Assembly (NCBI GenBank): GCA_021772635.1
Contig: JAJFLP010000101.1
Location: 1-64,000 of the forward strand
Direction of reading: 5' to 3'
From: Verrucomicrobiota bacterium
Lineage (GTDB): Bacteria; Verrucomicrobiota; Lentisphaeria; JABSQK01; JAJFLO01
Length of the DNA: 64,000 nucleotides
The position numbers and the translations under genes are program-made. How positions within the stretch are numbered: the stretch's first letter is position 1; each line of letters starts with the position of its first letter. The notes under the pieces were generated by a model, which saw only the letters and a program-made list of their open reading frames with translations, had not been told where the DNA came from and searched no databases. Of this stretch, positions 26,572 to 48,929 are shown piece by piece.

Positions 26572-27339
26572 ATGGTTAAGCATATGATTGACACAATAAA
26601 ATTCCGCGCGGGCGAATACATCTTCAAAAAGGGTGAACAAAGTGTTTTCGCTTATATAGTTGAGTCGGGTCAAGTCGAAATAATCGACACGCATCGGAAG
26701 AAAAGCATTGTGTTGAACATCGTCGACAGCGGCGAGATTTTCGGAGAAATGGGAATTATCGACGATAAACCGCGATCAGCCTCCGCGCGAGCAATCACGG
26801 ATATTGAAGTAACCGCAATCGACATTGACCGATTTGTTGACATGTTGATGAAAGATCCAAAGCGCGTCCTCAAGTTTATCCAGGTATATTTCGAGCATAT
26901 ACGAACTTTAACGGCCATGCTGACTGACGGTAAGGACACTCCCATAAATAGTGTCAGTCAACCGGGAGTATCCGTTACCCTCATGCCGTTGACGGCAGTG
27001 ACCGCCACTGCGATTGGCAAAAAAAGCCTCGAAATTCAACGGTTCCCCATTCGAATAGGCCGTGAAGCCGATTTAAACGAAAGTATTATGCTAGATCAAA
27101 ATGATCTGGTGCTTCCCGACAAGAAACCGTTTAAGCTGTCACGGAATCATGCGTCAATCGAATACCAAAAATCTTGTTTCGTGGTGAGAGATCGAGGAAG
27201 TTACTACGGCACAATTGTCAACGGAGAAAAAATCGGCGGCCGTCGATTTCAATCTGCGAACGTCCTCAAGCCGGGTTTCAACGAACTGATCCTCGGGAAG
27301 AATGATTCTGTCTATCGCTTCAAAATCGTTGTTGAATAG
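26572..27339 (+). CDS. Cyclic-nucleotide-binding domain fused to FHA domain
   Basis: A 255-residue soluble protein. Residues 1 to about 120 form a cNMP-binding domain (GEYIFKKGEQSVFAYIVESG; phosphate-binding cassette GEIFGEMGIIDDKPRSASAR). Residues about 150-255 form an FHA domain with the phosphothreonine-binding IRIGRE, LSRNHASIE and GTIVNGEKIGG motifs. There is no catalytic or DNA-binding part, so it should act as an adaptor that brings phosphothreonine partners under cyclic-nucleotide control. Its FHA is paralogous to that of the 38473 protein (shared FPIRIGR, NDL.L, SRNH, GTLVNG). An alternative ATG lies four codons downstream. Confidence 0.88.
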   Translation: MVKHMIDTIKFRAGEYIFKKGEQSVFAYIVESGQVEIIDTHRKKSIVLNIVDSGEIFGEMGIIDDKPRSASARAITDIEVTAIDIDRFVDMLMKDPKRVLKFIQVYFEHIRTLTAMLTDGKDTPINSVSQPGVSVTLMPLTAVTATAIGKKSLEIQRFPIRIGREADLNESIMLDQNDLVLPDKKPFKLSRNHASIEYQKSCFVVRDRGSYYGTIVNGEKIGGRRFQSANVLKPGFNELILGKNDSVYRFKIVVE

Positions 27340-27379
27340 TGAGGAAGCGGCGGGTACCTGACGAATACTTCCGAACGTT

Positions 27380-27560
27380 AGTATACTAACTCCAGTTAGG
27401 TTTTCGCGTGCGTTCTGCTGTCCAGCAGAATCGAATCACGTGATTCGCCGCGGCGAAAACGCGACTGCACGTGGCGCGACGGACGTCGACAAGTTTTCTG
27501 AAATCTTTGCCTAGCGTAACAAGAGATCGCCGAAAATTCGACTGCTTTAGTCTTAATCCC
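27380..27560. repeat. Dispersed repeat ahead of the rluA-type gene
   Basis: ACTAACTCCAGTTAGGTTTT at the left and ACGTCGACAAGTTTTCTGAA plus AATTCGACTGCTTTAGTC at the right recur, in the same order and orientation, at 44285-44400, inside the 5' end of another gene. The 27380 copy has extra hairpin-forming material in the middle (TTCTGCTG/CAGCAGAA; GAATCACGTGATTC). The left end also recurs near 7558. Confidence 0.65.
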
Positions 27561-27617
27561 ACTGACTGTATAAGTCCCATCCGATAGCTCTCCGTCAAAT
27601 CGTGTCGACAACCCCGT

Positions 27618-28310
27618 ATGCTCGTATATCTTGACAATCACTTAATCGTCGTCCATAAGCCTGCGGGGATGCTGATCCAGGGAGATTCAACGGGTGATTT
27701 CACGCTTGTGCAGTGGGCGAAAAACTACCTGAGACACAAGTTCAATAAACCCGGAAACGTTTACGTCGGCCTTGTTCATCGACTTGATCGCCCGACTTCC
27801 GGGATAGTCGTATTCGCTCGCACATCCAAAGCGGCGTCACGCTTATCCGAACAGTTCCGCTCAAGGACGGTCGACAAAGTCTATTGGGCGCTCACCGAGG
27901 GAATCGTACCGAAGGAAGGGATCTTAAAAGCCCAGTTGACGCGTGAAGGAAGATCAACAAGAATTACTGGATTGAACGGCGGGAAGTACGCAGAACTAAG
28001 TTACCACCGCGTTCGCAAATCGAAGAATCTTTCGTGGGTGGAAATATCGATGTCTACCGGCAGGCATCATCAAATTCGCGTCCAGTTCTCAAGTATAGGA
28101 CACCCGATAGTCGGTGATTTCAGGTACGGATCGAAACGGAAATTCCCCAACAGAACCCTTGCCCTCCACGCACAGTCGCTAACGATTAGCCACCCGATCA
28201 AGAAAGAGCCAATGACGTTTTCCGCACCACCAGCGCCATATTGGGAGGAATACTTTAATCCCACCAGTGGGTTTAACTCCCCGTTCTGCTGTCCAGCACG
28301 AACGTGGTAA
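27618..28310 (+). CDS. RluA-family 23S/tRNA pseudouridine synthase
   Basis: A 230-residue protein with the RluA catalytic motif VHRLDRPTSGIVVFA (about residues 53-67; the Asp is the nucleophile), plus IVVHKPAGMLIQ near the N-terminus and the GRHHQIRVQF and HPIVGDFRYG motifs. It isomerises uridine to pseudouridine in RNA; without an S4 domain the target cannot be told. The C-terminal 17 or so residues ([17 protein letters not shown]) are encoded by a dispersed repeat that begins at 28256, so the natural end has been replaced. Its codons 3-51 are duplicated 1.6 kb upstream. Confidence 0.9.
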   Translation: MLVYLDNHLIVVHKPAGMLIQGDSTGDFTLVQWAKNYLRHKFNKPGNVYVGLVHRLDRPTSGIVVFARTSKAASRLSEQFRSRTVDKVYWALTEGIVPKEGILKAQLTREGRSTRITGLNGGKYAELSYHRVRKSKNLSWVEISMSTGRHHQIRVQFSSIGHPIVGDFRYGSKRKFPNRTLALHAQSLTISHPIKKEPMTFSAPPAPYWEEYFNPTSGFNSPFCCPARTW

Positions 28311-28368
28311 AGCTCTAAGAGTCTTTCATCCCTCGCGGGCTTGCCCCGAGGCAGTTGATTAGACAACC
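28256..28368. repeat. Dispersed repeat forming the 3' end of the rluA-type gene
   Basis: TTAATCCCACCAGTGGGTTT, then AAGCTCTAAGAGTCTTTCAT and CGCGGGCTTGCCCC, match 11186-11475 in the inverse orientation. The unit starts inside the coding region, reads through in frame and supplies a new stop at 28308. Confidence 0.65.
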
Positions 28369-28445
28369 GCAGTAGTGTAGCCTGATCTATGCATAAAATT
28401 TCTACTGTGAGCCTGTATCAGACCTTAGGGCTCGACTCCGATCGC

Positions 28446-29303
28446 TTAGTGATTCATGGCGTCGAGTATTTCACTGTATCCCTCACGGTACGACGGATAT
28501 CGAAATCGATATCCGGTCCCACTGATTTTCTTATTGCTGCAGCGTTTGTTCGTGCCGCGACGAGCCCCCTCATCCAGGTTCGCGCTTTTAATCTCGTCAG
28601 CGGGCATCCCTAATTTTTCGGCAATCCAACATACAAGCTTATAGGTATCCACCGGTTCATTATCTGTCCCGACGTATATGGGCTCCAAAGCTGAATGCGT
28701 CACCAAATGAGTCAGGATTCCGATCACATCCTCAATATGAATAAGATTCCTGTAAGTCGGGTATTCAGTTGAGAACCACACACGTAGATTCCTTACACGC
28801 TCAATAAATCGGGTTCGACCGGGACCGTAAATACCTGCAAAACGAATACAGGTCGATGGTATCCAAGATTCAGCGACGAGTTGCTCGGCTTCCAGCAATC
28901 GGCGCCCCGAGAAGGACACCGGCGAAGTTGGCGAGTCCTCGTCTACTAACTCTCCCTGTGACTGTTGATATACACCGGTACTGGAAATAAAAAGGATCCG
29001 CGGTGAAGTCGACTTCCGATTCCCCAGAAAATCTAACAGATTTCGTGTACCGTCAACATACGTGGTTTTGTATGAATCGTCATCAAATCCGTCAGCGGTC
29101 AAAATGATATAGATCCAGTCTAGTTGTTCAGGGATCACGTGCAATGTTTCTGGGCACGACAAATCGGCACGGAGCGCTATTATCGGCGGCGGTATCGCCT
29201 CCGGATTCCTGCGGAGCCCCCAAACTGTATGGCCTTCGTTCGCGAGTCTGCAGCCGAGACGGGTTCCGATATCTCCGCAGCCTGCTATTAGTATTCGGGA
29301 CAT
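28446..29303 (-). CDS. SDR-type NAD(P)-dependent epimerase/dehydratase-like protein
   Basis: A 285-residue Rossmann-fold protein. The nucleotide-binding loop is ILIAGCGDIGTRLG, an atypical (GxGxxG) version of the extended SDR signature, as in the YeeZ group. FISSTGVYQQSQGELVDEDS carries the substrate-side Ser/Thr, RFAGIYGPGR is the SDR PGR motif and NLIHIEDV follows. The usual YxxxK pair is not evident (RRLLEAE at that point), again like YeeZ-type proteins whose substrate is unknown. A GGGGGT sequence precedes the ATG. It is convergent with the rluA-type gene. Confidence 0.8.
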   Translation of the reverse strand: MSRILIAGCGDIGTRLGCRLANEGHTVWGLRRNPEAIPPPIIALRADLSCPETLHVIPEQLDWIYIILTADGFDDDSYKTTYVDGTRNLLDFLGNRKSTSPRILFISSTGVYQQSQGELVDEDSPTSPVSFSGRRLLEAEQLVAESWIPSTCIRFAGIYGPGRTRFIERVRNLRVWFSTEYPTYRNLIHIEDVIGILTHLVTHSALEPIYVGTDNEPVDTYKLVCWIAEKLGMPADEIKSANLDEGARRGTNKRCSNKKISGTGYRFRYPSYREGYSEILDAMNH

Positions 29304-29374
29304 GGCACCCCCTTACGTGGGCAACTGGTTCGCTCAAGAACTAAACAATGATTTCGACGTGAGTCACGTAGTAC

Positions 29375-29460
29375 AACGCCGCGCACGCGATAGCGATCCC
29401 GATTTCGACTCCGATTGGTCGTCTCACGGGCTCATTCTCGATGGAATGGTTGTGGTTAAA
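29375..29460. repeat. Fragment of the GGTCGTCCCACGGGCTCA dispersed repeat
   Basis: GCGATCCCGATTTCGACTCC then GATTGGTCGTCTCACGGGCT and CTCGATGGAATGGTTGT closely follow the text of 8400-8465 and 17060-17120. It lies in the short divergent/convergent space between the SDR gene and fxsA. Confidence 0.6.
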
Positions 29461-29509
29461 AATCGGATTACACAGCCTTCTTCTGATGCCATTCCGGTCA
29501 GATCTATTT

Positions 29510-30019
29510 CTACTCGTTCTCTATCTGATCGTGGACATCCTTACTTTCGACATCAATAATATCTTCGCGGAGATCCTTTTGGTTTTCGGCTGTTGCACTG
29601 CTTGAATAATTGTAAGTGAACCCCGATCCGGTAGCCTTCACCGCACCCGACTTAATTAAGTGCGTAAATCGCTTAATTAGCCACCATCTGAATATCCTCC
29701 TCCCGGCCGGCAGTAATAGCAGAAACCCCATAATGTCGGTGAGAAACCCCGGCGTCAATAGGACAGCGCCTGCAACCAGTATAATCAAACCGTCGACGAT
29801 CTCCGCTCCCGGGAGACTCCCGGCACTGAGGGATGCTTTAATTTCTCCGAGGATCTTGAGCCCCTGCTGTTTAGCGAGGTACGCACCGATGATACCCGTA
29901 AGAACGATTACGATATAGGTCTCGATCGCACCGATCGCACCGCCTATCTTAAATAATAACAGCAGTTCAACGACCGGCACGACGATAAAAAGTAAAAGTA
30001 AATAATGAATTATGCGCAT
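29510..30019 (-). CDS. fxsA: FxsA-family inner-membrane protein
   Basis: A 169-residue membrane protein with hydrophobic segments near residues 5-45 and 75-100. The order is characteristic of FxsA: VPVVELLLLFKIGG, a small-residue helix with TGIIGAYLAKQQGLKIL, and PGFLTDIMGFLLLLPAGRR (last helix followed by basic residues). In E. coli FxsA relieves F-exclusion of phage T7; its physiological role is not settled. The C-terminal tail is polar and acidic. It begins 17 bases after the AbrB-like gene stop, so the two are probably co-transcribed. Confidence 0.88.
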   Translation of the reverse strand: MRIIHYLLLLFIVVPVVELLLLFKIGGAIGAIETYIVIVLTGIIGAYLAKQQGLKILGEIKASLSAGSLPGAEIVDGLIILVAGAVLLTPGFLTDIMGFLLLLPAGRRIFRWWLIKRFTHLIKSGAVKATGSGFTYNYSSSATAENQKDLREDIIDVESKDVHDQIENE

Positions 30020-30036
30020 AAGATTTCACAAAGAAG

Positions 30037-30282
30037 TCAATAGCGTAGGTGTCGCTCTACGATTCCCCGTGTCAAGTTCATAATCTCGTCAGTCGTCATC
30101 TTGACGCTGGCGGCACCCCGGAATTTCCTGAATCTGCTGGCGGACTTATTGTTAGATTTTTTTCTGACGATGTATACGCGCTCCCCCTGTTCTTTGAAAT
30201 CCACTTCGCTATTTGGTCGTAAAGCATGTTTTTCTCGAATATAGTGGGGAATAGTTACCTGACCTTTTGATGTTATTCTCAT
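30037..30282 (-). CDS. AbrB/MazE/SpoVT-type DNA-binding protein, orphan
   Basis: An 81-residue protein starting at 30282, where GGGAGG provides a ribosome site; an upstream in-frame start adds nine residues without one. MRITSKGQVTIPHYIREKHA is the swapped-hairpin DNA-binding motif of AbrB-like antitoxins (MazE/VapB type). The C-terminal half (basic stretch, then TTDEIMNLTRG) resembles the toxin-binding tails of VapB-like antitoxins. No PIN or MazF toxin follows; the next gene is fxsA. It is either an orphan antitoxin or a small regulator. Confidence 0.8.
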   Translation of the reverse strand: MRITSKGQVTIPHYIREKHALRPNSEVDFKEQGERVYIVRKKSNNKSASRFRKFRGAASVKMTTDEIMNLTRGIVERHLRY

Positions 30283-30516
30283 GGATTTACCTCCCGATCG
30301 CAAAGACAATATTAGTTTTACCAGATATTACTATTACCATAAATTACTGTGGAACAAAATACGGCTGGTACCGCGACTACTGAATTGATCTATGAATTCC
30401 CCGATTAGTCGCAAAAAATCGTTGCAGTCTATCCTCACCAGGCATAAGTTCCTGTGTAAAAGCTTGCAGTATAACGCATCAAACTTCAAATAGAATAAAC
30501 CAACTGGTGAGTCAAA

Positions 30517-32109
30517 ATGAAAAAACTACAGCTTGCAGATTTTGCCGCTGAATACGACGGCACCGAATCTTTACTCATTAATCCAGATAGTGGTGAAGTA
30601 CTAAAAAAATGCGGTCTGCGCCAGGTTTCGATGGATATCGATTTCGAAAAGACGCCAGAATATTCAGGAATCCTGGAGCGTGAGAAACAACTGTACCAGG
30701 AAATCGTTGATCCGGAAATTGACAAAAAACCATTCGACTCAATCTCCGCTGTCGCGAACGGCGGTATGGGCATATTGAAGATGGCGACCGAATTGGGTCT
30801 GGATCGTGAAATTGCGATGAAAGTCATTATCCCGGAGCTGAAAACGGATGACGACGTGATTCGGGCCTTTCTTCGTGAAGCGGTGTTAACCGCGCAATTG
30901 CAACACCCGAATATCGCACCGATTTATCGACTTGGGTTTCTCGAGGAGTCCGGGCTCTACTACACCATGCGTTATGTTAGTGGAGAGACGCTGGGAACCA
31001 TCATTACCAACCTTACTCTACAATACCCGAATTACGTGGAGAAGTACGATTATTATGAGCTTCTCGAAATTTTTATGAAAGTCTGTCAGGCTGTGGCATA
31101 TGCGCACACGAAGAATGTCATTCACCGCGATATCAAGCCCGGAAATATCATGATCGGAAATTACGGCGACGTGCTGCTTCTAGATTGGGGTCTCGCGAAG
31201 CGGATGGTCTGGGATCGAAAGAAGGTATCCCTTGGGGACAAGGGTGAATTCGTTAATCCGGCGTACGAGACGTTGATGCCGAATACTATCAAAGCGTCAC
31301 CGGCATACATGGCGCCAGAACAGGCGATCGGTTCTGAAGAACATACCGACCAGCGTACGGATATTTTCCTATTGGGGTCGACCTTGTACCATATGTTCAC
31401 CCATCGCCCACCCTATGCGGGACGCGACCTGGGCGAGATCATTAAGTCCGCGCGTAAAGTGAAATTCGCGCCGCCCGATAGCCGTGAGTTCGTGGGGAAA
31501 CGGATCCCCCAGGCCCTCTGTAATGTGATAAAAAAGGCGATGTCGGTCAAGCCTGAAGATCGATATCAAAACGTGGAGGAACTAATCAAGGATGTAGAGG
31601 ACGTTCTTCACGATAAGATGGACTTCGATCAGGCTTTTTATAAGCCGGGCGATACCCTTATGACGCAGGGAGATATCGGGCACTCGCTTTATTATATCTT
31701 AAGTGGCGAGGTCGTTGTATTCACGACCGGAAAACTCGGTATGACTCGCGAGCTTGAGCGAGTTGGCCCGGGCGAAGTTGTCGGCGAACTGGCACTCATC
31801 AGCGAAGCCCCGCGAGTGGCAAACGTGAAGGCAGTTAAACCGACGGAGGCTCTCATTCTCAGCAAAGACGCGTTTAAGGGAAACCTGGAAAAAATGCCGC
31901 CATGGTTTTCACGTTTGATCGAGTCTATCGCAGGACGACTGGTTCAGGCGAACGTCCACAACCGTGAAGTACATTTACGCCCCGGATTTCTCCCGTGGTT
32001 CGGCTCGAAGAAGAAAGATCCGCCCCCGGCTCCAACGGTTCCGCCAAAGATCAAGGGTAAAGGTAAGACCAAGGGTAAAGGTAAGAATAAGAGTAAGAAG
32101 GTCGATTAA
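30517..32109 (+). CDS. Ser/Thr protein kinase fused to cyclic-nucleotide-binding domain
   Basis: A 530-residue soluble protein. An N-terminal region of about 85 residues precedes a Hanks-type kinase (about 85-365): glycine loop NGGMGILKMAT, AMKVI lysine, HRDIKPGNIM catalytic loop, LDWGLAK in place of DFG, and an APEQAIG P+1 loop. A cNMP-binding domain follows (about 370-480; DTLMTQGDIGHSLYYILSGE; GEVVGELALISEAPRVANVK), and a Lys/Gly tail of the form KGKTKGKGKNKSKK ends the protein. DWG instead of DFG is common in bacterial kinases of this branch. The architecture implies a kinase switched by a cyclic nucleotide. GGTGAG precedes the ATG; a 47-residue membrane protein follows. Confidence 0.9.
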   Translation: MKKLQLADFAAEYDGTESLLINPDSGEVLKKCGLRQVSMDIDFEKTPEYSGILEREKQLYQEIVDPEIDKKPFDSISAVANGGMGILKMATELGLDREIAMKVIIPELKTDDDVIRAFLREAVLTAQLQHPNIAPIYRLGFLEESGLYYTMRYVSGETLGTIITNLTLQYPNYVEKYDYYELLEIFMKVCQAVAYAHTKNVIHRDIKPGNIMIGNYGDVLLLDWGLAKRMVWDRKKVSLGDKGEFVNPAYETLMPNTIKASPAYMAPEQAIGSEEHTDQRTDIFLLGSTLYHMFTHRPPYAGRDLGEIIKSARKVKFAPPDSREFVGKRIPQALCNVIKKAMSVKPEDRYQNVEELIKDVEDVLHDKMDFDQAFYKPGDTLMTQGDIGHSLYYILSGEVVVFTTGKLGMTRELERVGPGEVVGELALISEAPRVANVKAVKPTEALILSKDAFKGNLEKMPPWFSRLIESIAGRLVQANVHNREVHLRPGFLPWFGSKKKDPPPAPTVPPKIKGKGKTKGKGKNKSKKVD

Positions 32110-32139
32110 CTCCTGACAACTGCCGAGGAACTTCTAACG

Positions 32140-32283
32140 ATGCTATGGTTAATCGTCGCCGTTATCGGCGGACTTATTTTCATTGCCATAAACGCTTTGA
32201 TACTGAATCCGCCAGAGGTCCTACTTGATTTCTTCGGCAAAAGGAAGGGCAAGAGTCCGGAGGATTCGAATCCCTCGGACTAA
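32140..32283 (+). CDS. 47-residue single-pass membrane protein
   Basis: A short frame 30 bases after the kinase/cNMP gene, with GAGGAA as ribosome site. It encodes a hydrophobic helix from residue 2 to about 23 (LWLIVAVIGGLIFIAINALI), then a Pro/Glu stretch, a basic patch (FFGKRKGK) and an acidic end (SPEDSNPSD). The N-out/C-in topology is suggested by the basic patch after the helix. Its stop overlaps that of the convergent rapA gene by a few bases. Function is unknown; position suggests a membrane partner or anchor for the kinase. Coding status rests on position, ribosome site and composition only. Confidence 0.5.
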   Translation: MLWLIVAVIGGLIFIAINALILNPPEVLLDFFGKRKGKSPEDSNPSD

Positions 32284-35138
32284 CCCCCATTCGATCCCCG
32301 CCAGATAAATCTAATCGAGTCCAGGCGAACTACGGACTCGCTAAAATGCGTGTTCAGCCGCTTCCGTTCATCCTCAAGAATATTAATTTCTTCCTCGCAA
32401 ACTGGCGCATTCGCAGCTTGCAATGAATTTAGTCGTTCAATTTCAGTGTTTAGTGCCGACGTCATAGAAGCAATCGCCGAGGTCATGATCTTGTGTTTCT
32501 TTGTCTCCGCGAGTTGCCGGCACCGCTCGGTTAGTGCAGGTATCAGGTCCTGTGTTACCTCAGGCTTCTGTAGCATTGACGCTTGCGGCTCGTCTTTCAA
32601 CACCCGCGTCAATAAATCCGAGCCGATATCATCGCTTAAGTCTTTACCACTATGATTTATTAGTATCCGCAACGGCGTCGGAGGAAGAAATCGATCCGGC
32701 CGGAGAGACATGGGGGCCATTGAGTACACGAGAAATATCGTCTCTAACAATATCGTTCGCGACTCGGGATCTGCCCAGAACGCATACCCCACGCGCCCCG
32801 ACGAAGAACCTATTAACTCATCGATCGCACCGATAACCATCGGATGCTCCCACGTCAAAAAAGCGAGGTCCTCGCGAGCGAGCGCCCTGGTTCTACTGAA
32901 GGTAACGGCAAGCCCATCGTCGGGTAACCCCGGTAATCCTTGGTAATGTGCGCCTTGGCGAAAGAACAGACCGTCGTAGTCATGGTCTTCAACCTGAACA
33001 CCAAGATGCTGGCATACGTCCTCCATAAATATCGCTAGATCCGGACGGGAGTCGTGGTCTTCTATTTCATTGACGATCGCTTTTCCGATTTCGGGTCGGC
33101 ACGAGTGGTATTCCAGTAGTCTATCACGACCGGAAGCCAGTTGTCGATCGACAATTTTACGGGCCTCCTGTGTATCCTTAATAAGCAATCGGAGCGCTTC
33201 CGAATTCTTCATCGTTCGCCAAGCTCCCGTAACGCCTAAAACTCGGTTTTTGAGGTCACGGTAGAGTATTGATGCGCCCGAAACCGGTTTTCGAAAAGCA
33301 TTCAGCCCATCATCATACCACGTTGCCAATACCTCCATGGATGTTCCCATGATATAGGGCACATGGATATGAACATCGTTTTTTTGACCGATTCTGTCGA
33401 GACGGCCGATTCGCTGTTCGAGTAGTTCCGGATTGATCGGGAGATCGAATAGAACAAGCCGATGGCAAAACTGAAAATTTCGGCCTTCGCTTCCGATCTC
33501 CGAGCATATTAGTAGCCGTGCCCCGTCGTGTTCGGCGAAGTATGCGGCATTCCTATCACGTACCAGGAGCGGTAGATCCTCATAGAATAGCGCTATTGGA
33601 ATCTTAATTTTCTGCTCGATCTCCGCTTGAAGCGCCTGAACCGTTTCTCGGCGTGCACAGATAAGGAGGACCTTGTCATCGGGATTGTCGACTAAAAGCT
33701 TTATCACATAATCGACCCGGGGATCGTTCTTCCACCATACAGCCACGGAATCGCGTGACACCTGGCACTCTGGGCATAAATCGTTCTCAGCGAATTGAGC
33801 GCCTCGCAACAATGCTGCACACGCTTCGTCCATTGATAGATTATGCAGTAGTGGAACACGCTTAGGGAAACCACGGATATTTCTCCGCTGATTGCGATAG
33901 AAAAGGCGGCCGGTTCCATGTCGATCGACCAAATCCGCAATCAACAAATCTCGTGAACGCGAATCACCGTTCTCAACTTCGCGGAGTTTCGTACGCAACC
34001 TTTGTTGATCGTAACCATAAATTTCGCTTACCAACCGTTGGTCATCATCATTGAGAAGTTCGCCGTCGATGAGTTTCTCTACGATGCCCGCCACAGAGAC
34101 ATACCTGCTTTGATCTTTGGAGAAATCCTCAAGATTGTGAAACCGATTTTGATCAAGTAATTTGAGTCGAGCGAAATGCCCCGTCTCTCCCAGTTGCTCC
34201 GGGGTTCCGCTTAAAAGCAGGACGCTTGGGATCCTTTGTGAAAGACGTTCCACCAATTGATAGCCTGTGCTGGCCGATTCAGGAGTCCACGAGAGATTAT
34301 GTGCTTCGTCGACTATAAGCATATCCCATTGTTCCGCACACACTTGCAGCATTCTAGCTGGGTTATCGCGTAAGAATTTAAAATCACAGATTATCCTGGA
34401 ACTGTCTGCGAATGGGTTGCTATCCGACTGCGTGGATTCGATCGCCTCGCACCGTTCTTCGTCAAACACACTGAATACGATATTAAACCGGCGCCACAGC
34501 TCAAGAAACCATTGATGCGCCAAAGATTCAGGTAAAAGAATTAATACTCGTGCGCACGCACCGGTTAATAATTGGCGATGAAGAATCAGCCCGGCCTCAA
34601 TCGTCTTTCCCAATCCGACTTCATCCCCCAGTATCACCCGAATATGATAGCGCCGCGTCACTTCGGAGACGATATACAATTGATGCGGCAAGAGGGAGAT
34701 TCGCCCCCCCAAGAAGCCGCGAAGTTTCAGGGATTGAAGCCAATGGCGCCGTCGCAGCGCGGCATATCGTAGATCGAATAAATGGTTCGGATCGGTTTTG
34801 CCGATTAATATCCGATCCTCAGGCGCACTGAAATCCATCGTTTCAGCAAGCTCTGTTTCAGATATTACAGCATCGCCACCGCAGTACACCAGTACGCCAT
34901 CTTCATCGAGGATCTTATCAACCATCAAATCGCGACCATCAGTCGAGATCACCGTGTCTCCGACAGTGAAACGTAACCGCCGCAACGGCGCTGTTTCCAC
35001 CGAGTAACATCGGGTAAATTCCTGCGAGGGAAAGTGGACTTGCACTTCCCGAAGGTTCACGTCAATTATTAGACCGAGTCCAAGCTCCGGCTCAGAATCA
35101 CTGAGCCAGCGTTGGCCTTTAACGAATTTATTTTTCAT
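32280..35138 (-). CDS. rapA: RNA polymerase-associated SWI2/SNF2 ATPase RapA
   Basis: A 952-residue protein, close to the 968 of E. coli RapA, with matching order: N-terminal Tudor-like domains (GQRWLSDSEPELGLGLI), SNF2 helicase motif I GDEVGLGKTIEAG, LLPESLAHQW, motif II IVDEAHNL, motif III LLSGTPEQLG, then the C-terminal lobe (LLICSEIGSEGRNFQFCHRL; LEQRIGRLDRIGQK) and the RapA-specific tail (GRDRLLEYHS; ITWEHP-type FLTWEHPMV; NRFLPPTP-type DRFLPPTPLRIL). RapA binds core RNA polymerase and recycles it after termination. It is usually gammaproteobacterial, so its presence bears on the identity of the organism or on transfer. No clear ribosome site was seen. Confidence 0.93.
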   Translation of the reverse strand: MKNKFVKGQRWLSDSEPELGLGLIIDVNLREVQVHFPSQEFTRCYSVETAPLRRLRFTVGDTVISTDGRDLMVDKILDEDGVLVYCGGDAVISETELAETMDFSAPEDRILIGKTDPNHLFDLRYAALRRRHWLQSLKLRGFLGGRISLLPHQLYIVSEVTRRYHIRVILGDEVGLGKTIEAGLILHRQLLTGACARVLILLPESLAHQWFLELWRRFNIVFSVFDEERCEAIESTQSDSNPFADSSRIICDFKFLRDNPARMLQVCAEQWDMLIVDEAHNLSWTPESASTGYQLVERLSQRIPSVLLLSGTPEQLGETGHFARLKLLDQNRFHNLEDFSKDQSRYVSVAGIVEKLIDGELLNDDDQRLVSEIYGYDQQRLRTKLREVENGDSRSRDLLIADLVDRHGTGRLFYRNQRRNIRGFPKRVPLLHNLSMDEACAALLRGAQFAENDLCPECQVSRDSVAVWWKNDPRVDYVIKLLVDNPDDKVLLICARRETVQALQAEIEQKIKIPIALFYEDLPLLVRDRNAAYFAEHDGARLLICSEIGSEGRNFQFCHRLVLFDLPINPELLEQRIGRLDRIGQKNDVHIHVPYIMGTSMEVLATWYDDGLNAFRKPVSGASILYRDLKNRVLGVTGAWRTMKNSEALRLLIKDTQEARKIVDRQLASGRDRLLEYHSCRPEIGKAIVNEIEDHDSRPDLAIFMEDVCQHLGVQVEDHDYDGLFFRQGAHYQGLPGLPDDGLAVTFSRTRALAREDLAFLTWEHPMVIGAIDELIGSSSGRVGYAFWADPESRTILLETIFLVYSMAPMSLRPDRFLPPTPLRILINHSGKDLSDDIGSDLLTRVLKDEPQASMLQKPEVTQDLIPALTERCRQLAETKKHKIMTSAIASMTSALNTEIERLNSLQAANAPVCEEEINILEDERKRLNTHFSESVVRLDSIRFIWRGSNGG

Positions 35139-35216
35139 AAGTAATCAAAATTACATTTAATTAGAATAAGACGCCGGCACTGCAATCCGCCGTAACCGAC
35201 AACTTTGGATCCAGGA

Positions 35217-35624
35217 ATGAAGAAAAGCAGGCGGCAGCAGAAAGATAATTCAAGCAATGGAAACGATTTCCCGACGAATCCGTTCGACGGATTAGATCCC
35301 GGATTATTCGCGGAACGATCGGATGACATCGGCGTGTCCGAAAATGCTACCGCTAATACAGGAAACTCCAATAACAAACATATAACATTCTATATTCGCA
35401 GGGAAAAGAAAGGGCGGGCGGGAAAGGTTGTTACCCTAATTAGTAATCCTAACGGTGACTACCAGGATTCGATAACCGATCTCGCGAGAGACCTCCGGAA
35501 ATCACTTGGAACTGGCGGGACGTGCACGAAGGACAACATTGAGTTGCAAGGAGATCATCGCCGTGCGTGCGCGGAGTGGTTGCAAAACCGCGGGTATAAA
35601 TTGAAAGGTGAAGTTGATATTTAA
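35217..35624 (+). CDS. yciH: eIF1/SUI1-family translation factor (YciH-like)
   Basis: From the ATG at 35217 this is a 135-residue protein; a TTG four codons earlier is possible. The C-terminal half is the SUI1 fold (YIRREKKGRAGKVVTLIS; SLGTGGTCTKDNIELQGDHR; WLQNRGYKLKG), with the conserved GTGG(T)-K-IELQGDH motif. The N-terminal 55 residues are Asn/Ser/Asp-rich and probably disordered, longer than in E. coli YciH (108 residues in total), although NPFDGLDPGLF resembles the short N-terminal motif of other bacterial homologues. The product likely binds the 30S subunit and affects start-site fidelity. It is divergent from rapA, about 80 bases away. Confidence 0.88.
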   Translation: MKKSRRQQKDNSSNGNDFPTNPFDGLDPGLFAERSDDIGVSENATANTGNSNNKHITFYIRREKKGRAGKVVTLISNPNGDYQDSITDLARDLRKSLGTGGTCTKDNIELQGDHRRACAEWLQNRGYKLKGEVDI

Positions 35625-35841
35625 CCTTCTCGTTGTTCAATAACTCGATGAACTCGGTGAAATCCTTCTTTATCTCCATTCTTCATAATCCACATATTGA
35701 GATTTATTCTTTCCAAAGCAATACTTCGACTTAACACAGCATTATACTTGCATTCCAACGTACTATGGTTTAGATGATTACCGTATCCATACTATCCCCA
35801 TCGCCATTGGGGATAAAAACGATTAAGGATCTGCTTAAATT

Positions 35842-36639
35842 ATGATAATCTGCATTTCTCCATCGAAAACTCTAGACGAATCTACGGGGACAGAATCTCT
35901 TGAATTTACCATGCCGGAGTTTCTTGAGCACTCGCAGAAACTCGTTAATAAACTCAGAAAACTGAGTGCGAATAAGCTAAAGTCGCTGATGAACATTAGC
36001 GATTCATTGGCGAAACTGAATCGTAAACGTTTCGATGAATTTCAGCTTCCCTTCACGAGTGATAACGCGAAACAATGCGTGCTAATGTTTAAGGGAGATG
36101 TATATGAAGGGCTTGATGCGAACGACTTCGATACTGCTGACTTCGAGTTCGCACAAAAACACCTTCGCATTCTATCGGGTTTATACGGGAGTCTCAAGCC
36201 GCTCGACCTTATGCAGCCGTATCGGCTCGAAATGGGGACCTCGATCGGCGCGGGCCGGAAACGCAATCTCTATGATTTCTGGAGTGACAAAGTCACAGAC
36301 CACATCAAAGAAGCCGTCACGATTCAGGCTAAGGATTCATCGGGAGAATCGGATGGCGCCCGCGTAGTTATCAACCTGGCGTCAAAGGAATACTTCAAGG
36401 TCGTCAACGAAGGCAGATTAAATGCTCGCGTAATCACACCGGTATTCAAGGAGGAACGCGACGGCGGAATGCAGATGATATCCTTCTTCGCAAAGAAGGC
36501 CCGCGGGTTACTCGCAAGGCACATCATCAAGAACCGACTGACGCACCCCGACCAACTATTATCCTTTGATTCAGACGGATACCGCTATAACGCTGACGTA
36601 GCGACTGATGACTTTCCTGTATTTACGAGAAAATCCTGA
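35842..36639 (+). CDS. yaaA: Peroxide stress protein YaaA (DUF328)
   Basis: A 265-residue protein, close to E. coli YaaA (258). Typical elements are the N-terminal MIICISPSKTLD, FKGDVYEGLDANDF, HLRILSGLYGSLKPLDLMQP, YRLEMGT, NLYDFWSDKV, NLASKEYFKVV, and the C-terminal FFAKKARGLLARHIIKNRL. YaaA lowers free iron and protects DNA during hydrogen peroxide stress and has a DNA-binding fold with a helix-hairpin-helix. Here the MQPYRLEMGT core is complete. It stands alone; a GACTGC-type palindrome lies 31 bases after its stop. Confidence 0.92.
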   Translation: MIICISPSKTLDESTGTESLEFTMPEFLEHSQKLVNKLRKLSANKLKSLMNISDSLAKLNRKRFDEFQLPFTSDNAKQCVLMFKGDVYEGLDANDFDTADFEFAQKHLRILSGLYGSLKPLDLMQPYRLEMGTSIGAGRKRNLYDFWSDKVTDHIKEAVTIQAKDSSGESDGARVVINLASKEYFKVVNEGRLNARVITPVFKEERDGGMQMISFFAKKARGLLARHIIKNRLTHPDQLLSFDSDGYRYNADVATDDFPVFTRKS

Positions 36640-36860
36640 CGAAGACTGGCATCAGGACCCGCGATTATGGACTGCTCGCAGTCTAAAGCCGGAGTAGCGC
36701 CCCGTCTTCCGTAGTGAATTCCGTCGTTCCTTCCTGCACAGCGCGTCAAGTTGACATTATCACCAAATTACGTACTTTATGTAGCTTGGTTCTCACACTT
36801 TAGTGTGTCAAAATGACGAAGTTTCGTAGGAGCGATCTGCCAACCGAATAATGTTTTACA

Positions 36861-36936
36861 ACCATGAAGGACATGAAGAGCATGAAGGGGAAAATATCAA
36901 AAGTCTTTACTTCATGCTCTTCATGTCCTTCATGGT
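36861..36936. repeat. 27-bp inverted repeat of ATGAAGGACATGAAGAGCATG
   Basis: Perfect arms 36861-36887 and 36910-36936, each built from ATGAAGGACATGAAGAGCA units, with a 22-base loop. One arm recurs alone at 53222-53247. Nearby, 36795-36810 is a short CACACTTTAGTGTG hairpin. There is no T-run, so this is more likely a REP-type repeat than a terminator. The rest of the 36640-37043 gap contains two GACTGC palindromes (36670, 36996). Confidence 0.75.
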
Positions 36937-37043
36937 GAAAATCGCAGTCAAATCGTTCAAGTTTCAACGAAGTCGTCCCGCGCGATCGAAAATCCCACTG
37001 CTTGCAGTCTAAATAAAAACAAACAACGTATTAGGCGGAGAAA

Positions 37044-38342
37044 TTGGAGAAAAATATTTTAATCGTCGATGACGACCGCGATCAGCGAGATGTACTCCGG
37101 GCTACTCTCGAATTATTTGAATACCGGGTTTTGGAAGCGGCAAACATCACCGACGCTAAGTCTGTCATCCAGAACGACCAGGTAGATCTGATAATAACCG
37201 ACGTGGAAATGCCGGGAGGTACAGGGATCGATCTGTTGAAATCTGTAAAAGTATCGCATCCGCAGATTCCGACCATTATCCACACCGGAATGCCTAAATT
37301 CGAAGCGGCGGTCGAGTGCGTAAAAATAGGAGCGGTGGACTACCTGCAGAAACCGGTGGCTGTCAAAACGATGATGGACATTGTCCGCGCTGCCCTGGCT
37401 GCGGTGGATGAATCTAAGTGTATGGATGCAGCGCGCACGCTGAAAATGGATCGGGTCGGATGTATATTTGGCGGTTACGAAATCATTAAGACCCTGGGCG
37501 AAGGTTCGTTCGGCGTTGTCTTTTTGGCGCGGAGATTCGAAAAAGATATCGTTAAGAATTACGCCATTAAGCTAATAAAACCCCCTACCCTTGGCGAAGA
37601 CGACTCCCGCGAGTATCTGGAACGATTCCTGCACGAAGCCGACGCGGGAACCCGCGTTCTACATCCGAATGTCATCAGCGTTGTGGATCACGGCCTGGCG
37701 GAAGACGGGATGTTTCCGTACCTCGTAATGGAGTACTTCCGCGGACAGTCATTGAAAGAACTCATGAAGGAAGGGTGTAACCTTGACTATCGTCAGAAAA
37801 CAAAGATAATTTTACAGATAGCCGAAGCGTTGGCGGCCGTCCATGCTCATGGCATATTTCATCGGGACATAAAACCCGATAACGTCATGATTGACGAGGA
37901 TTTCATGCTTAAAGTCATGGATTTCGGAGTCGCCCGGCTGCCTGAATCCGAACTCACCGTGACGACCACGATCCTTGGTACACCATTCTATCTGTCGCCT
38001 GAGGGGTTTTTATCGGCGAAAGTCGATCATCGGGCAGATATCTATTCCCTTGGCGTTCTCGCCTATGAATTGTTCCTCGGAAAGAAACCGTTTGACAGCA
38101 AAGCTATAGCGGTACTGATGCGACTTATCATGACGGCACCGCCGCTCGAACCTAGTAAAATCGACGGCGATTTTTCACCGGGACTCCAGGATATTCTCGC
38201 TGTCATGTTGAAGAAAGATCGAGATCAGCGTTATCAGAGTGCCAATGAACTCATTGCCGACCTCCGGGATTTTCTCGATTCGAATATTGATGAACTGCGA
38301 GCGAGGCTCAAAGACCGTCTGGAAGCGAATGACTGGGAGTGA
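37044..38342 (+). CDS. Receiver domain fused to Ser/Thr protein kinase
   Basis: A 432-residue soluble protein, TTG start with GGAG three bases before it; no better start is seen. Residues 1-125 are a receiver (acidic pocket Asp9-11, phosphoacceptor Asp53 in LIITDVEMPGG, Lys in YLQKPV). Residues about 150-410 are a Hanks-type kinase: glycine loop GEGSFGVV, YAIKLI lysine, HRDIKPDNVMI catalytic loop, DFG in KVMDFGVAR, SPEGF, and DIYSLGVLAYEL. A phosphorelay would therefore switch Ser/Thr phosphorylation directly. The next gene encodes an FHA-receiver protein that could read the product. The stop is one base from a GACTGC-type palindrome, and another such palindrome lies upstream. Confidence 0.92.
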   Translation: MEKNILIVDDDRDQRDVLRATLELFEYRVLEAANITDAKSVIQNDQVDLIITDVEMPGGTGIDLLKSVKVSHPQIPTIIHTGMPKFEAAVECVKIGAVDYLQKPVAVKTMMDIVRAALAAVDESKCMDAARTLKMDRVGCIFGGYEIIKTLGEGSFGVVFLARRFEKDIVKNYAIKLIKPPTLGEDDSREYLERFLHEADAGTRVLHPNVISVVDHGLAEDGMFPYLVMEYFRGQSLKELMKEGCNLDYRQKTKIILQIAEALAAVHAHGIFHRDIKPDNVMIDEDFMLKVMDFGVARLPESELTVTTTILGTPFYLSPEGFLSAKVDHRADIYSLGVLAYELFLGKKPFDSKAIAVLMRLIMTAPPLEPSKIDGDFSPGLQDILAVMLKKDRDQRYQSANELIADLRDFLDSNIDELRARLKDRLEANDWE

Positions 38343-38343
38343 A

Positions 38344-38443
38344 GACTGCAAGCAGTCGAATTTTTAATTCCGGGCTCAACTGTGTGCTCTGCACCCGCTC
38401 CGTCTGCACGATAAATCGTGTAAAATTTCGACTGCTTGCAGTC
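38344..38443. repeat. Inverted pair of GACTGC-NN-GCAGTC palindromes
   Basis: GACTGCAAGCAGTC (38344-38357) and its reverse complement GACTGCTTGCAGTC (38430-38443) bracket the space between the receiver-kinase and FHA-receiver genes. Each is itself nearly palindromic. The same motif (exact or with one to three changes) appears at 21870, 25984, 27540, 36670, 36996, 41504, 44387, 58209 and 59234. Confidence 0.75.
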
Positions 38444-38472
38444 GATCAATCAACTATAAGGGAAGAAATACG

Positions 38473-39657
38473 ATGAACAACGAGCGTGTGATCCTGATCG
38501 ATAATTCCGACGTGCCGGCATCTCAACGACACGTAGAACTAATAATCCACAAATTTCCGTTTCGAATCGGCCGCAGCATGACGGATGGAGAATCACATCG
38601 TCATTTTGATTTACAGGAAAATGACCTGTATCTCAAAGAGAGCGGGAATCCATTTCACGCCTCCCGAAATCATGTAGAACTCGGATTCAGCGGCGGATCC
38701 GTTTACATACGCGACCTCGGCAGCGCTAACGGCACTCTCGTGAACGGTATGCGGATCGGCGGTCAACGGGGTGAGCAGGCGACGCTATTGCTGCAGGTGG
38801 AAAATAATATTATTCAAATCGGCAAAAATAAGTCCCCGTGGAAATTTGAACTCAGGATTCCACAGCGAAAGGAACGCTATCGAATGGTTATCGCGGACGA
38901 CGATGTGGAAATGCGCGATCTGCTCGAAAGTATTTTCAGCGATGACTTCGATATCATACTCGCAAAAGACGGAGAAGAGGCCCTGGAACGCTGCCTTGCC
39001 GAAGTCCCCGATATCGTCATTCTCGACTGGGATATGCCGAAAATACAGGGTATCGACGTCTGCAAGACCCTAAAATGTAATCTGAAAACATCTAATCTTC
39101 CTATCGTTATGCTGACGGGACGGGCCGAGTCGATTGACCGAATCACCGGGATTGAGGTTGGCGCCGATGACTATATTACGAAACCCCCGGAGTTAGAAGA
39201 ACTGAAAACCCGGGTAAACGGTGCCCTTTCCCGCGTCCTTCACGCACGCGATGTCCATTGGTTGACCGGCATCGCCAGTGAGGCCGCTTTCCGCAATGAA
39301 GTCAATGATCTACTCAGCAGCGCGACGGAGAAAAAAGAGTTCGGGTTGATAAAGGTAACATTGCAAAACCTTGGAACCATGGATTGGGAAGTTGGTGAAA
39401 AAGCCACCGACACCATGGTTCGAAGAATAGCAGAGGCATTATGGGGAGAAACCGTCAAAGCGGAGCGCACCGTTGTCGGCCAGCTTCGAATCGGGCAGTG
39501 GGGTATTTTGACGCCAAAGATAACGCGAAAGCAGGTTGAGAAATCGATCAAAGCCAACCTGAATCCCATAATCAAAGATACCCCGCTAAAGTTTACTGCC
39601 AAGTACTATGCCAGTTCCAGTGGGCAGAGTTACCACGATTTCGTCGATTTAATATAA
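38473..39657 (+). CDS. FHA-receiver-degenerate GGDEF protein
   Basis: A 394-residue soluble protein. FHA domain (about 1-125): FRIGRS, ASRNHVELG, GTLVNGMRIGG. Receiver (about 135-255): ADDDVEMRD, VILDWDMPK, YITKPPEL. C-terminal domain (about 258-394) begins WLTGIASEAAFRNEVNDLL, the usual start of a GGDEF domain, but where GGDEF and the metal ligands should be it reads LRIGQWGILTP, so it should not make cyclic-di-GMP. It could bind GTP or a protein instead. It sits directly after a receiver-Ser/Thr kinase, the likely source of the phosphothreonine its FHA would bind. AAGGGAAG is the ribosome site. Confidence 0.87.
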   Translation: MNNERVILIDNSDVPASQRHVELIIHKFPFRIGRSMTDGESHRHFDLQENDLYLKESGNPFHASRNHVELGFSGGSVYIRDLGSANGTLVNGMRIGGQRGEQATLLLQVENNIIQIGKNKSPWKFELRIPQRKERYRMVIADDDVEMRDLLESIFSDDFDIILAKDGEEALERCLAEVPDIVILDWDMPKIQGIDVCKTLKCNLKTSNLPIVMLTGRAESIDRITGIEVGADDYITKPPELEELKTRVNGALSRVLHARDVHWLTGIASEAAFRNEVNDLLSSATEKKEFGLIKVTLQNLGTMDWEVGEKATDTMVRRIAEALWGETVKAERTVVGQLRIGQWGILTPKITRKQVEKSIKANLNPIIKDTPLKFTAKYYASSSGQSYHDFVDLI

Positions 39658-40128: not shown

Positions 40129-41505
40129 ATGAGGAAAAAACAAAGAACGATATTGGTCGTGGAAGACCATCTGGTATTTCGTGAAGCGGTTGTTGACTCG
40201 CTTTCTCATCTATACAATGTCGCGGCGTCCGGATCCGTAAATGAGACCCTGGACTATTTGGAAAAGAACACCCCCGATATCATATTTGTGGATATCGGCC
40301 TGCCCGATGGCGATGGCTTATCGCTGGTCAAAACGATACGATCCTCCCACTGCGATTCAGCAATCATTATGATGACTGCGCAAAGCGAGATTTCCACCGT
40401 GGTCGAAGCTATGCGAAACGGAGCAAGCGACTATCTGGTGAAACCGGTGAGAGCCGATGTCCTCAATGTCGTGGTTGAGAAGGCGCTGGAGGCGACTGAA
40501 AACCGACGGGAACTGAAATCCCGGCGCCAGGTCGACAACCTGTCGCTCAAAGAATGCGAATTTGTCGGCCTCAGCACATTTGCCCGAGAACTTTCCAAAA
40601 AAATAAACGTGCTCGGAGCATCGGACACGACGGTGCTGCTTGAAGGCGAAACCGGAACCGGAAAGGAATTGATCGCCCGACTGATTCATCGCGAAAGCGC
40701 GCGCTTATCGAAACCATTCGTTGCTCTCAATTGTGCCGCTATCCCGAAAGACCTTATTGAAGCAGAGTTGTTCGGTTACCAGGAAGGCGCGTTTACCGGC
40801 GCCAGGAAAAAGAGAATCGGAAAATTTGAGCTCGCTGACAATGGCACGTTGTTATTGGATGAAATTGCGGACCTTCCGCTAGACGCACAGTCGAAATTAC
40901 TCCGTATTCTTGAGGAACAGGACTTCTACCCGGTAGGAAGCAATGAACTTCGTAGCGTCGATGTACGGGTAATCGCGTCGACGAACCAACACCTCGCGGA
41001 ATTGGTTGAGAAGAAACTGTTTCGCGCGGATTTGTACTACCGATTGAATGTTTACGTACTTGCAGTGCCCGCTCTTAGTCAGAGACCGGAGGATATTATT
41101 CCGTTAACCGAACAATTTATCCGGATTTTCAACCGTAAATTCGGTAAGAATGTAGAGGGGGTTCACGATCGGGCACGAGATTTCCTTCTGAATCACGCCT
41201 GGCCGGGCAACGTACGGGAGTTACGTAATGTATTGGAACGCGTGATGCTCTTCTGCACAGATTCCGTTATTCAACCGGAACAATTGCACTTTATTCAGGC
41301 GGATTTTGAAAGGCGATCGTCCGAGTATTCGGATACTAAATCGACTCTTACGGACGGATTGGATCAGCGCATCATTGAAATAGAAAAATCGATTATTTCG
41401 GACGCTCTGAATCGGACGCGCGGCAATAAGGCGAAAGCCGCGAGAATGTTGCAGTTATCGGCACCTGCTTTTCATTATCGATTGGAGAAATATGGAATGA
41501 AGTAA
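40129..41505 (+). CDS. NtrC-type sigma-54-dependent response regulator
   Basis: A 458-residue protein: receiver (1-125, phosphoacceptor in IIFVDIGLPDGDG), sigma-54 AAA+ domain (about 140-380: Walker A GETGTGKE, sigma-54 contact loop GAFTGA, Walker B TLLLDEIADLP, arginine-finger region RADLYYRLNVY) and a Fis-type helix-turn-helix (about 415-458: NKAKAARMLQLSAPAFHYRL). It activates transcription from -24/-12 promoters. The adjoining kinase (41525) is its evident partner. A plausible -24/-12 promoter lies at 44163. The stop overlaps an ACTGCAAGCGGT palindrome. Confidence 0.94.
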   Translation: MRKKQRTILVVEDHLVFREAVVDSLSHLYNVAASGSVNETLDYLEKNTPDIIFVDIGLPDGDGLSLVKTIRSSHCDSAIIMMTAQSEISTVVEAMRNGASDYLVKPVRADVLNVVVEKALEATENRRELKSRRQVDNLSLKECEFVGLSTFARELSKKINVLGASDTTVLLEGETGTGKELIARLIHRESARLSKPFVALNCAAIPKDLIEAELFGYQEGAFTGARKKRIGKFELADNGTLLLDEIADLPLDAQSKLLRILEEQDFYPVGSNELRSVDVRVIASTNQHLAELVEKKLFRADLYYRLNVYVLAVPALSQRPEDIIPLTEQFIRIFNRKFGKNVEGVHDRARDFLLNHAWPGNVRELRNVLERVMLFCTDSVIQPEQLHFIQADFERRSSEYSDTKSTLTDGLDQRIIEIEKSIISDALNRTRGNKAKAARMLQLSAPAFHYRLEKYGMK

Positions 41506-41524: not shown

Positions 41525-43318
41525 TTGGACGACTCGTTCGTGCCAGCGTATATGACTCCGAACGATATTTCGTCCCGCATGCAGGAGAATGACGATGGGA
41601 ATAAAATGACCGACTCCAGTAAAAATTTATCAAAACTCCGACAACGTGCGATGAAAAGAATTACGGAGAGCCATCGTGACTACCGCAATATGTCACAGGA
41701 TGACATCAGAAGGCTTATCGACGAGTCACATATTTACGAGATCGAGCTTGAACTGCAAAATGAGGAACTGCGCGACGCGCAGCTGCGGCTCGATGTATCT
41801 CTCAAAAAATACACGGATCTATATGACTTCGCGCCGGTCGCTTATTTGACGATCTGTGATAAGGGCCACATCCTTGAAGCCAATTTGGCCGCTTCCACCT
41901 TGCTGGCGAAAGAACGAAGCAAACTCGTTAATTCCCAACTCACGAAATTTATCACTGACGAAGATCAGGATACGTTTTATCTGTATCGAAAAAACGTTAC
42001 CGGCGGAACCATGGCGAAAAGCCCATGCGAACTGCAGATGCAGACCTCCGATGGCAGTCGCTTTTACGCAAGTCTGAACTGTATCCCCGTAGCGGATTGC
42101 GACAACCGTCCTAGTCATCTCCGCATCGCGATCACGAATTCGACTGAACGTCGCCAGGCAACAGCGAGGGTAGAAGAGGCCAGGAAATCGACGGTCGAGG
42201 AGCAAACTCGGGAATTACGTGCAGTTAATAGAAAACTGCTCCAGGAGATTGCCGAGCATGAGCGCGCCGATCAGAAAATTAAGCTATTCTGCCACCTGAT
42301 AGATCAAAGTAATGACGCGATTATTACCGCAGATCCGGATACAGGAAGATTGATCGATTTCAATCAATGCGCCTGTCGCATGCTCGGATATTCAAAGCAG
42401 GAGTTAGCGGCCTTAACCATACACGATATTCATACCAAACTGCCGAAGCAATCTTACGAGACGGACGATATAGAAAACGCCGAAAAGCACGGTTCGACGT
42501 TCTTGAAAACGAACTATAAGCGTAAAGACGGCACTGTATGCCCCGTCGAATTGAGTTCACGCCATGTTTCCATATCGACCGGAGAATACGTCATCGAAAT
42601 CGCACGCGATACGACGCAGTTTCAAAAACTGCACGATCAAAGAAACCGGGCCGAGCGATTGGCGGTCTTGGGCGAGTTCTCAGCATCGGTCGCCCACGAA
42701 ATCCGCAACCCGTTGGCAGCAATTGAATTGAGGTTGTCCAATCTCGCCGCAGCGCTGCATATTACACCGGAAGATAACGGCGATTACGACCATATTCTGA
42801 CAGCGATCGAGAACGCGAAGCACATCATTGATGAAATACTGAATTTTGCCAAACCCGCGCCGCCTGACTTCCGGAACGCGCAGATCACCACGATCATTGA
42901 CGGCAATCTCGGGATGCTGGCGGCCAGATTAAGAGATTGTAACGTTTCGGTTGTCAGGAACTACATGCCGCAAACGCGCCCGGTGTACGTAGATTATTCA
43001 CATTTTATGCAGATTTTTTCGAATATCATTTTTAACGCGCTCGCGGCGATGCCGGATGGCGGCAATCTGAGCATTACGACAAAGGAGCGGAAGCAATTCC
43101 TCCTCGTCGAAATAAACGATACCGGTACCGGCATCGGCGAAGACGGAAAAGAACTCATTTTCGATCCATTCTACACGACGAAACCCGATGGAACCGGACT
43201 TGGCTTAGCGATTGTTTCGCGATTACTTGAGGCGAATCATTCGACCATAAAAGTCGAGAGTATGGTCGAAAAAGGAACCACGTTTACGATTTCAATTCCC
43301 TTCGCGGATGTGCAGTAA
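41525..43318 (+). CDS. PAS-PAS histidine kinase, NtrB-like
   Basis: Up to 597 residues without TM segments. The start is uncertain: TTG at 41525, or ATG at 41552, 41579 or 41606. The first codons run through a CCCGCATGCAGG palindrome, so the repeat may have changed the N-terminus. A coiled-coil stretch with HIYEIELELQNEELRDAQLR precedes PAS1 (about 85-200); PAS2 is at about 260-365; the NtrB-type H-box is FSASVAHEIRNPLAAIE; HATPase has NIIFNALAAMP, DTGTGIG and GTGLGLAIV. It lies 20 bases after the NtrC-like gene, forming a regulator-kinase pair that senses a cytoplasmic cue through PAS. Confidence 0.9.
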   Translation: MDDSFVPAYMTPNDISSRMQENDDGNKMTDSSKNLSKLRQRAMKRITESHRDYRNMSQDDIRRLIDESHIYEIELELQNEELRDAQLRLDVSLKKYTDLYDFAPVAYLTICDKGHILEANLAASTLLAKERSKLVNSQLTKFITDEDQDTFYLYRKNVTGGTMAKSPCELQMQTSDGSRFYASLNCIPVADCDNRPSHLRIAITNSTERRQATARVEEARKSTVEEQTRELRAVNRKLLQEIAEHERADQKIKLFCHLIDQSNDAIITADPDTGRLIDFNQCACRMLGYSKQELAALTIHDIHTKLPKQSYETDDIENAEKHGSTFLKTNYKRKDGTVCPVELSSRHVSISTGEYVIEIARDTTQFQKLHDQRNRAERLAVLGEFSASVAHEIRNPLAAIELRLSNLAAALHITPEDNGDYDHILTAIENAKHIIDEILNFAKPAPPDFRNAQITTIIDGNLGMLAARLRDCNVSVVRNYMPQTRPVYVDYSHFMQIFSNIIFNALAAMPDGGNLSITTKERKQFLLVEINDTGTGIGEDGKELIFDPFYTTKPDGTGLGLAIVSRLLEANHSTIKVESMVEKGTTFTISIPFADVQ

Positions 43319-48865: not shown

Positions 48866-48929
48866 GGGGGTTGAGGAACTTGGGGCTGGGGGCTTGGTGT
48901 GCCCCCAAACTCCGCAGACCGGAGATCCA

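Follow-up and report, generated by a model that had tools for sequence, protein, structure and literature searches.

A receiver-fused Ser/Thr kinase and an FHA-receiver partner as a candidate phosphorelay output module in a Lentisphaeria genome

Two adjacent genes in a Lentisphaeria MAG encode a receiver-Ser/Thr kinase fusion (REC-STK) and a protein joining an FHA domain, a receiver and a degenerate GGDEF domain (FHA-REC-dGGDEF), and on balance we favor the reading that the two form a functional unit serving as an output module of His-Asp phosphorelays. The pair lies in a 64-kb stretch of DNA (hereafter the window) that also carries a cNMP-FHA gene and an STK-cNMP gene, and a sequence-only reading of the window had joined all four genes into one signaling ring. 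Our analysis keeps the kinase and its FHA partner, which are duplicated together elsewhere in the genome; as a conserved system, the four-gene ring is ruled out by its distribution, the copy number of its members and the absence of linkage.

Four signaling genes in the window

The predicted architectures of all four genes, which we name by their start positions, are borne out by their open reading frames and Pfam domains. All are on the + strand: the cNMP-FHA protein (26572..27339, 255 aa; cNMP_binding 2.7e-22, FHA 2.1e-11), the STK-cNMP kinase (30517..32109, 530 aa; Pkinase 4.6e-34, C-terminal cNMP_binding 3.5e-21), the REC-STK kinase (37044..38342, 432 aa from a TTG start; Response_reg 6.2e-26, Pkinase 2.1e-51) and the FHA-REC-dGGDEF partner (38473..39657, 394 aa; FHA 2.6e-10, Response_reg 6.5e-25). 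Their earlier description as a ring of pairs holds for the modules themselves, although 38473 has three domains and the members are therefore not strictly pairs.

Both kinases carry their catalytic motifs (AIK, HRDIKPDN and DFG in 37044; AMK, HRDIKPGN and DWG in 30517). The receiver residues, comprising the Asp pair, the phospho-acceptor Asp, Thr/Ser and Lys (D9/D10/D53/T81/K103 in 37044), are present in 37044 and 38473 and invariant among homologues. The FHA domain of 38473 has the phosphothreonine-binding motifs (GR, SRNH, SANGTLVNG), and that of 26572 retains GR, SRNH and VNG with YYGT in place of xNGT (NGT to YGT). In both cNMP domains the Glu and Arg of the predicted phosphate-binding cassette are retained (FGE...PRSAS in 26572, GELAL...PRVAN in 30517).

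The third domain of 38473 is a degraded one. It scores 22.9 bits against a Pfam cut-off of 23.8, slightly below threshold, and Pfam scores for the GGDEF call are weak in four of the five family members; a profile match extends from the receiver into the GGDEF domain in REC-GGDEF proteins of known structure (6zxc, for example), and also in PleD. The motif region reads LRIGQWG, the remaining catalytic positions are unrecognizable, and the GGDEF signature is gone in all five homologues. Judged by this signature, the domain is predicted to be catalytically dead and not a diguanylate cyclase. An AlphaFold model of 38473 built from a two-sequence input had a mean pLDDT of 47, too low for the model to be of use, with the receiver alone partly confident.

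The FHA domains of 26572 and 38473 had been called paralogous, and a mutual match of 3e-20 together with a common insertion before the SRNH loop agrees with this. Apart from the copy on contig C51 described below, the 26572 domain matches the genome's other FHA domains at 1e-6 or worse. Among themselves, the 26572, 38473 and C51 domains match at 3e-20 or better, as against 6e-8 or worse for other genomic FHA domains, and they also have in common a C-terminal LGKxxSPW-like segment. The same subfamily occurs in cNMP-FHA proteins from elsewhere in the phylum and in short FHA proteins of family f63. These matches indicate that two protein families use a single FHA subtype, one fusing it to a cNMP domain and the other to a receiver, and the 26572 and 38473 domains may have a common phosphopeptide target.

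The four genes are not a single operon but fall into at least three transcription units. The interval from 26572 to 37044 also holds genes for a pseudouridine synthase, an epimerase, FxsA, RapA, SUI1 and YaaA, of which three are minus-strand genes, and 30517 is its own transcription unit. The only neighbors among the four are 37044 and 38473, separated by 130 bp. This gap holds two copies of a dispersed palindrome, GACTGCNNGCAGTC, found at window positions 36670, 38344, 38430, 44377 and 58209; a hairpin, CATGAAGGACATGAAGAGCATGAAG, lies at 36863-36934. About ten further two-component genes are present in the window. These include a CHASE8-HAMP histidine kinase (20287..21879, +) and a stand-alone receiver (22289..22729, +) upstream, and, after a 472-bp gap downstream of the pair, an NtrC-type sigma-54 response regulator (40129..41505, +) adjoined by a PAS-PAS histidine kinase (41525..43318, +). 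The histidine kinases 20287 and 41525 are both possible phosphoryl donors. No Che genes were found near the pair among the window ORFs scanned. Elsewhere in the window, a single 1556-aa ORF (2864-7534) combines an AcrB-type efflux pump with an outer-membrane efflux (OEP) domain, and an AMPK-type glycogen-binding domain occurs in a small protein (48894-49286) encoded amid two-component genes.

A second copy of the pair in a chemosensory array

Contig C51 of the source genome carries a second FHA-REC-dGGDEF gene, 60% identical to 38473, and downstream of it, in the same orientation, a REC-STK gene 47% identical to 37044; the gene order is opposite to that in the window, where REC-STK comes first. 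In a tree of 37 REC-STKs, 37044 and the C51 kinase are sisters with 99/98 support. Both FHA-REC-dGGDEF genes found in the genome thus adjoin a REC-STK, and the chance of both lying within 2 kb of one is 3.4e-4. The case for a functional unit is strongest on this double adjacency, together with the sister relationship of the kinases, and the sequences indicate that the 37044/38473 pair was duplicated in the source lineage.

The C51 pair belongs to a minus-strand array (C51:676-37023), where it is accompanied by a Wsp-like chemosensory set, KaiC and many hybrid histidine kinases. From about 37.0 kb downward, it encodes a PAS hybrid histidine kinase, CheW, CheR-TPR, a second CheW, an MCP with HAMP, CheA-CheW-REC and CheB; then REC-REC-HK, HK, a receiver, REC-PAS-HK-REC, REC-HK, two receiver proteins, KaiC and another receiver; and finally, down to 0.7 kb, REC-PAS-HK-REC, FHA-REC-dGGDEF, REC-STK and PAS-HK-REC. 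The pair therefore directly follows a REC-PAS-HK-REC hybrid kinase on the same strand, with its FHA-REC-dGGDEF gene some 18 kb from cheB. Window genes 20287 and 22289 have counterparts in this array (47% identity for the histidine kinase, 51-52% for the receiver), which also speaks for the pair.

The Wsp/ACF chemosensory type typically includes CheR-TPR and multidomain response regulators (PMC3447774, PMC8552884), and the C51 array shares with it an MCP, two CheW proteins, CheR-TPR, CheA-REC, CheB and a REC-GGDEF output candidate. Whereas Wsp/ACF systems have an active REC-GGDEF output, WspR, the nearest candidate on C51 is FHA-REC-dGGDEF, dead by sequence. The array further differs in its added FHA domain, the REC-Ser/Thr kinase alongside and the presence of KaiC, and Che genes are lacking around the window copy among the ORFs scanned. 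PMC3447774 lists neither FHA nor Ser/Thr kinase as an output domain.

Copy number and distribution among relatives

The source MAG (3.97 Mb, 91% complete, 130 contigs) encodes about 57 Ser/Thr kinase domains, 14 FHA domains, about 22 cNMP domains and 6 class III cyclases. Using home-made profiles consistent with the Pfam counts, we tallied architectures in the regions around the kinase matches, the FHA matches, most of the cNMP matches and the cyclase matches, and found 19 REC-STK, 8 STK-cNMP, 2 FHA-REC-dGGDEF, 1 cNMP-FHA, 3 REC-cyclase and 1 FHA-cyclase proteins. Two links of the proposed ring therefore come from large pools. With these copy numbers, random placement puts all four architectures within the observed span with a probability of 4.5e-5, or 3.3e-4 if REC-STK and FHA-REC are taken as linked, values for a pattern chosen post hoc and calculated without regard to the clustering of signaling genes; on both counts we treat the proximity of the four as weak evidence.

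Several other neighborhoods in the genome combine the same modules. An FHA-class III cyclase fusion (642 aa) adjoins a 1571-aa Ser/Thr kinase at C38:64918-72231, a kinase/FHA/cyclic nucleotide neighborhood tighter than the four-gene set in the window. STK-cNMP, a second Ser/Thr kinase and a class III cyclase are adjacent at C26:9646-14953, and three FHA proteins, one with two or three cNMP-like domains, cluster at C108:6042-15506. At each of C8:10240-13358 and C85:6650-9720, two REC-STK genes form a divergent neighboring pair.

Among 388 genomes of the phylum, the relatives' assemblies being fragmented, FHA-REC-dGGDEF was found in four, which all belong to the 198 genomes of the window's class: the source genome with its two copies, the family-mate G002 and the class relatives G003 and G014. 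The cNMP-FHA architecture occurs in eight of the 388, namely the source genome, G002 and six more distant Verrucomicrobiota (families f22 and f52), which are without FHA-REC-dGGDEF at the threshold used; it was not detected in G003 or G014, both of which have FHA-REC-dGGDEF. The two architectures thus overlap in only two genomes, and on the f22 and f52 genomes, as scored at that threshold, we reject a dependence of cNMP-FHA on the ring. In five f22 genomes, three of them just 1.3-1.7 Mb, cNMP-FHA adjoins ebfC and/or recR. Of 40 relatives, 14 or more carry full-length STK-cNMP.

All four architectures occur together only in the source genome and G002, members of one family, so that co-occurrence beyond close relatives, on which the four-gene proposal had been staked, was not found. 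Even in G002, cNMP-FHA and FHA-REC-dGGDEF are encoded on different short contigs from which the other ring genes are absent. Neither the four-gene linkage nor the linked pair was found in G002, G003 or G014 on the available contigs, those of G002 being short. The neighbors of FHA-REC-dGGDEF in these three genomes are folate-synthesis, cytidylate kinase or mnmG genes, with an unrelated receiver-less kinase 3 kb away in G014. As the gene mostly sits amid housekeeping genes in relatives, its pairing with REC-STK looks lineage-specific. A GTDB-wide scan with the FHA-REC-dGGDEF alignment gave, among the matches listed, one full-length match, in a Lentisphaeria MAG of the same order (L108, apparently identical with contig C18 of G003), and the remaining matches listed aligned chiefly to the receiver.

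A model for the pair and its alternatives

In the model that we favor, a histidine kinase, or possibly CheA in the case of the C51 copy, would phosphorylate the receivers of both proteins. The 37044 receiver would switch its own Ser/Thr kinase activity, and the FHA domain of 38473 would bind a phosphothreonine made by 37044, perhaps on the activation loop of 37044 itself. The receiver and dead GGDEF domain of 38473 might then act as a phosphorylation-controlled platform for dimerization or docking, such that a response would require Asp and Thr phosphorylation together. We infer every phosphotransfer and binding step in this scheme from architectures, conserved residues, duplication, linkage and distribution. 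Consistent with the scheme, all homologues have lost the GGDEF motif, whereas the residues of the receiver and FHA domains are preserved; against it, the linkage is found in the source genome only and the gene order is flipped between the copies. The cNMP-FHA protein 26572 is probably independent of the pair, and most likely 26572 and the STK-cNMP kinase 30517 are separate members of a large kinase/FHA/cNMP repertoire that lie nearby by chance.

Several known systems come close to the pair. For PknB and GarA it is established that a kinase recruits an FHA protein through its activation loop, as cited in PMC6213207; like the pairs cited there, ours combines a Hanks-type kinase with an FHA partner, but here both proteins bear receivers and would be under phosphorelay control. 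Bdellovibrio DgcB (PMC6733907) likewise joins an FHA domain, a consensus phosphopeptide sensor, to GGDEF, yet it is an active cyclase whose FHA domain reads its own N-terminal region, whereas 38473 has a dead GGDEF and a receiver in between. WspR/PleD-type regulators show the same order of receiver and GGDEF; 38473 differs in its N-terminal FHA domain and the loss of the GGDEF signature. Planctomycetota Ser/Thr kinase sets (PMC11032199) are also large lineage-specific expansions with FHA and cyclic-nucleotide-binding partner domains, but here many of the kinases (19) are fused to receivers. Searches of the open-access literature yielded no description of the four-module set.

We consider it rather unlikely that there is no functional unit at all, with four unrelated genes in a signaling-rich genome and the pair a duplicated chance neighborhood. 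The wealth of two-component genes in the window would fit such a reading, as would the FHA-REC-dGGDEF orthologues that are not beside a REC-STK in relatives. However, the copies have diverged and still remain adjacent despite their flipped order, and both pair proteins retain all signaling residues. Much less probable still is the ring as a single circuit, in which a phosphorelay would switch the kinase, FHA domains would recognize what it phosphorylates, and kinase and adaptor alike would be under cyclic nucleotide control. The four genes do lie inside 13 kb (with the chance values above holding before any look-elsewhere correction), their FHA domains, being of one subfamily, might recognize a common mark, the six class III cyclases could supply cNMP, and G002 carries all four architectures. 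Set against this are the multiplicity of REC-STK and STK-cNMP, the mostly separate occurrence of cNMP-FHA and FHA-REC-dGGDEF across the phylum, the unrelated genes on both strands that break up the cluster, and a four-gene linkage found nowhere else, with only the REC-STK/FHA-REC pair repeating on C51. What survives of the proposed network is its core, since 37044 and 38473 are best read as a Ser/Thr kinase under phosphorelay control with an FHA adaptor; the four-component system is unsupported by copy number and distribution, and we do not regard it as worth pursuing as a system.

A bolder extension of the favored pair model, which we put forward as a long shot, would have the chemosensory/KaiC phosphorelay array act through a receiver-switched Ser/Thr kinase that is read by a receiver-gated FHA partner, while a cNMP-gated protein with an FHA domain of that subtype reads this phosphothreonine as well. 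Signals from the phosphorelay, the Ser/Thr kinase and cyclic nucleotides would then converge on one mark. If the pair model itself is correct, 37044 and 38473 would represent a compact example in which a Hanks-type Ser/Thr kinase is switched directly by a His-Asp phosphorelay and the FHA-receiver partner serves as a coincidence detector, and the C51 copy would bring a Ser/Thr kinase into the known outputs of ACF-type chemosensory arrays.
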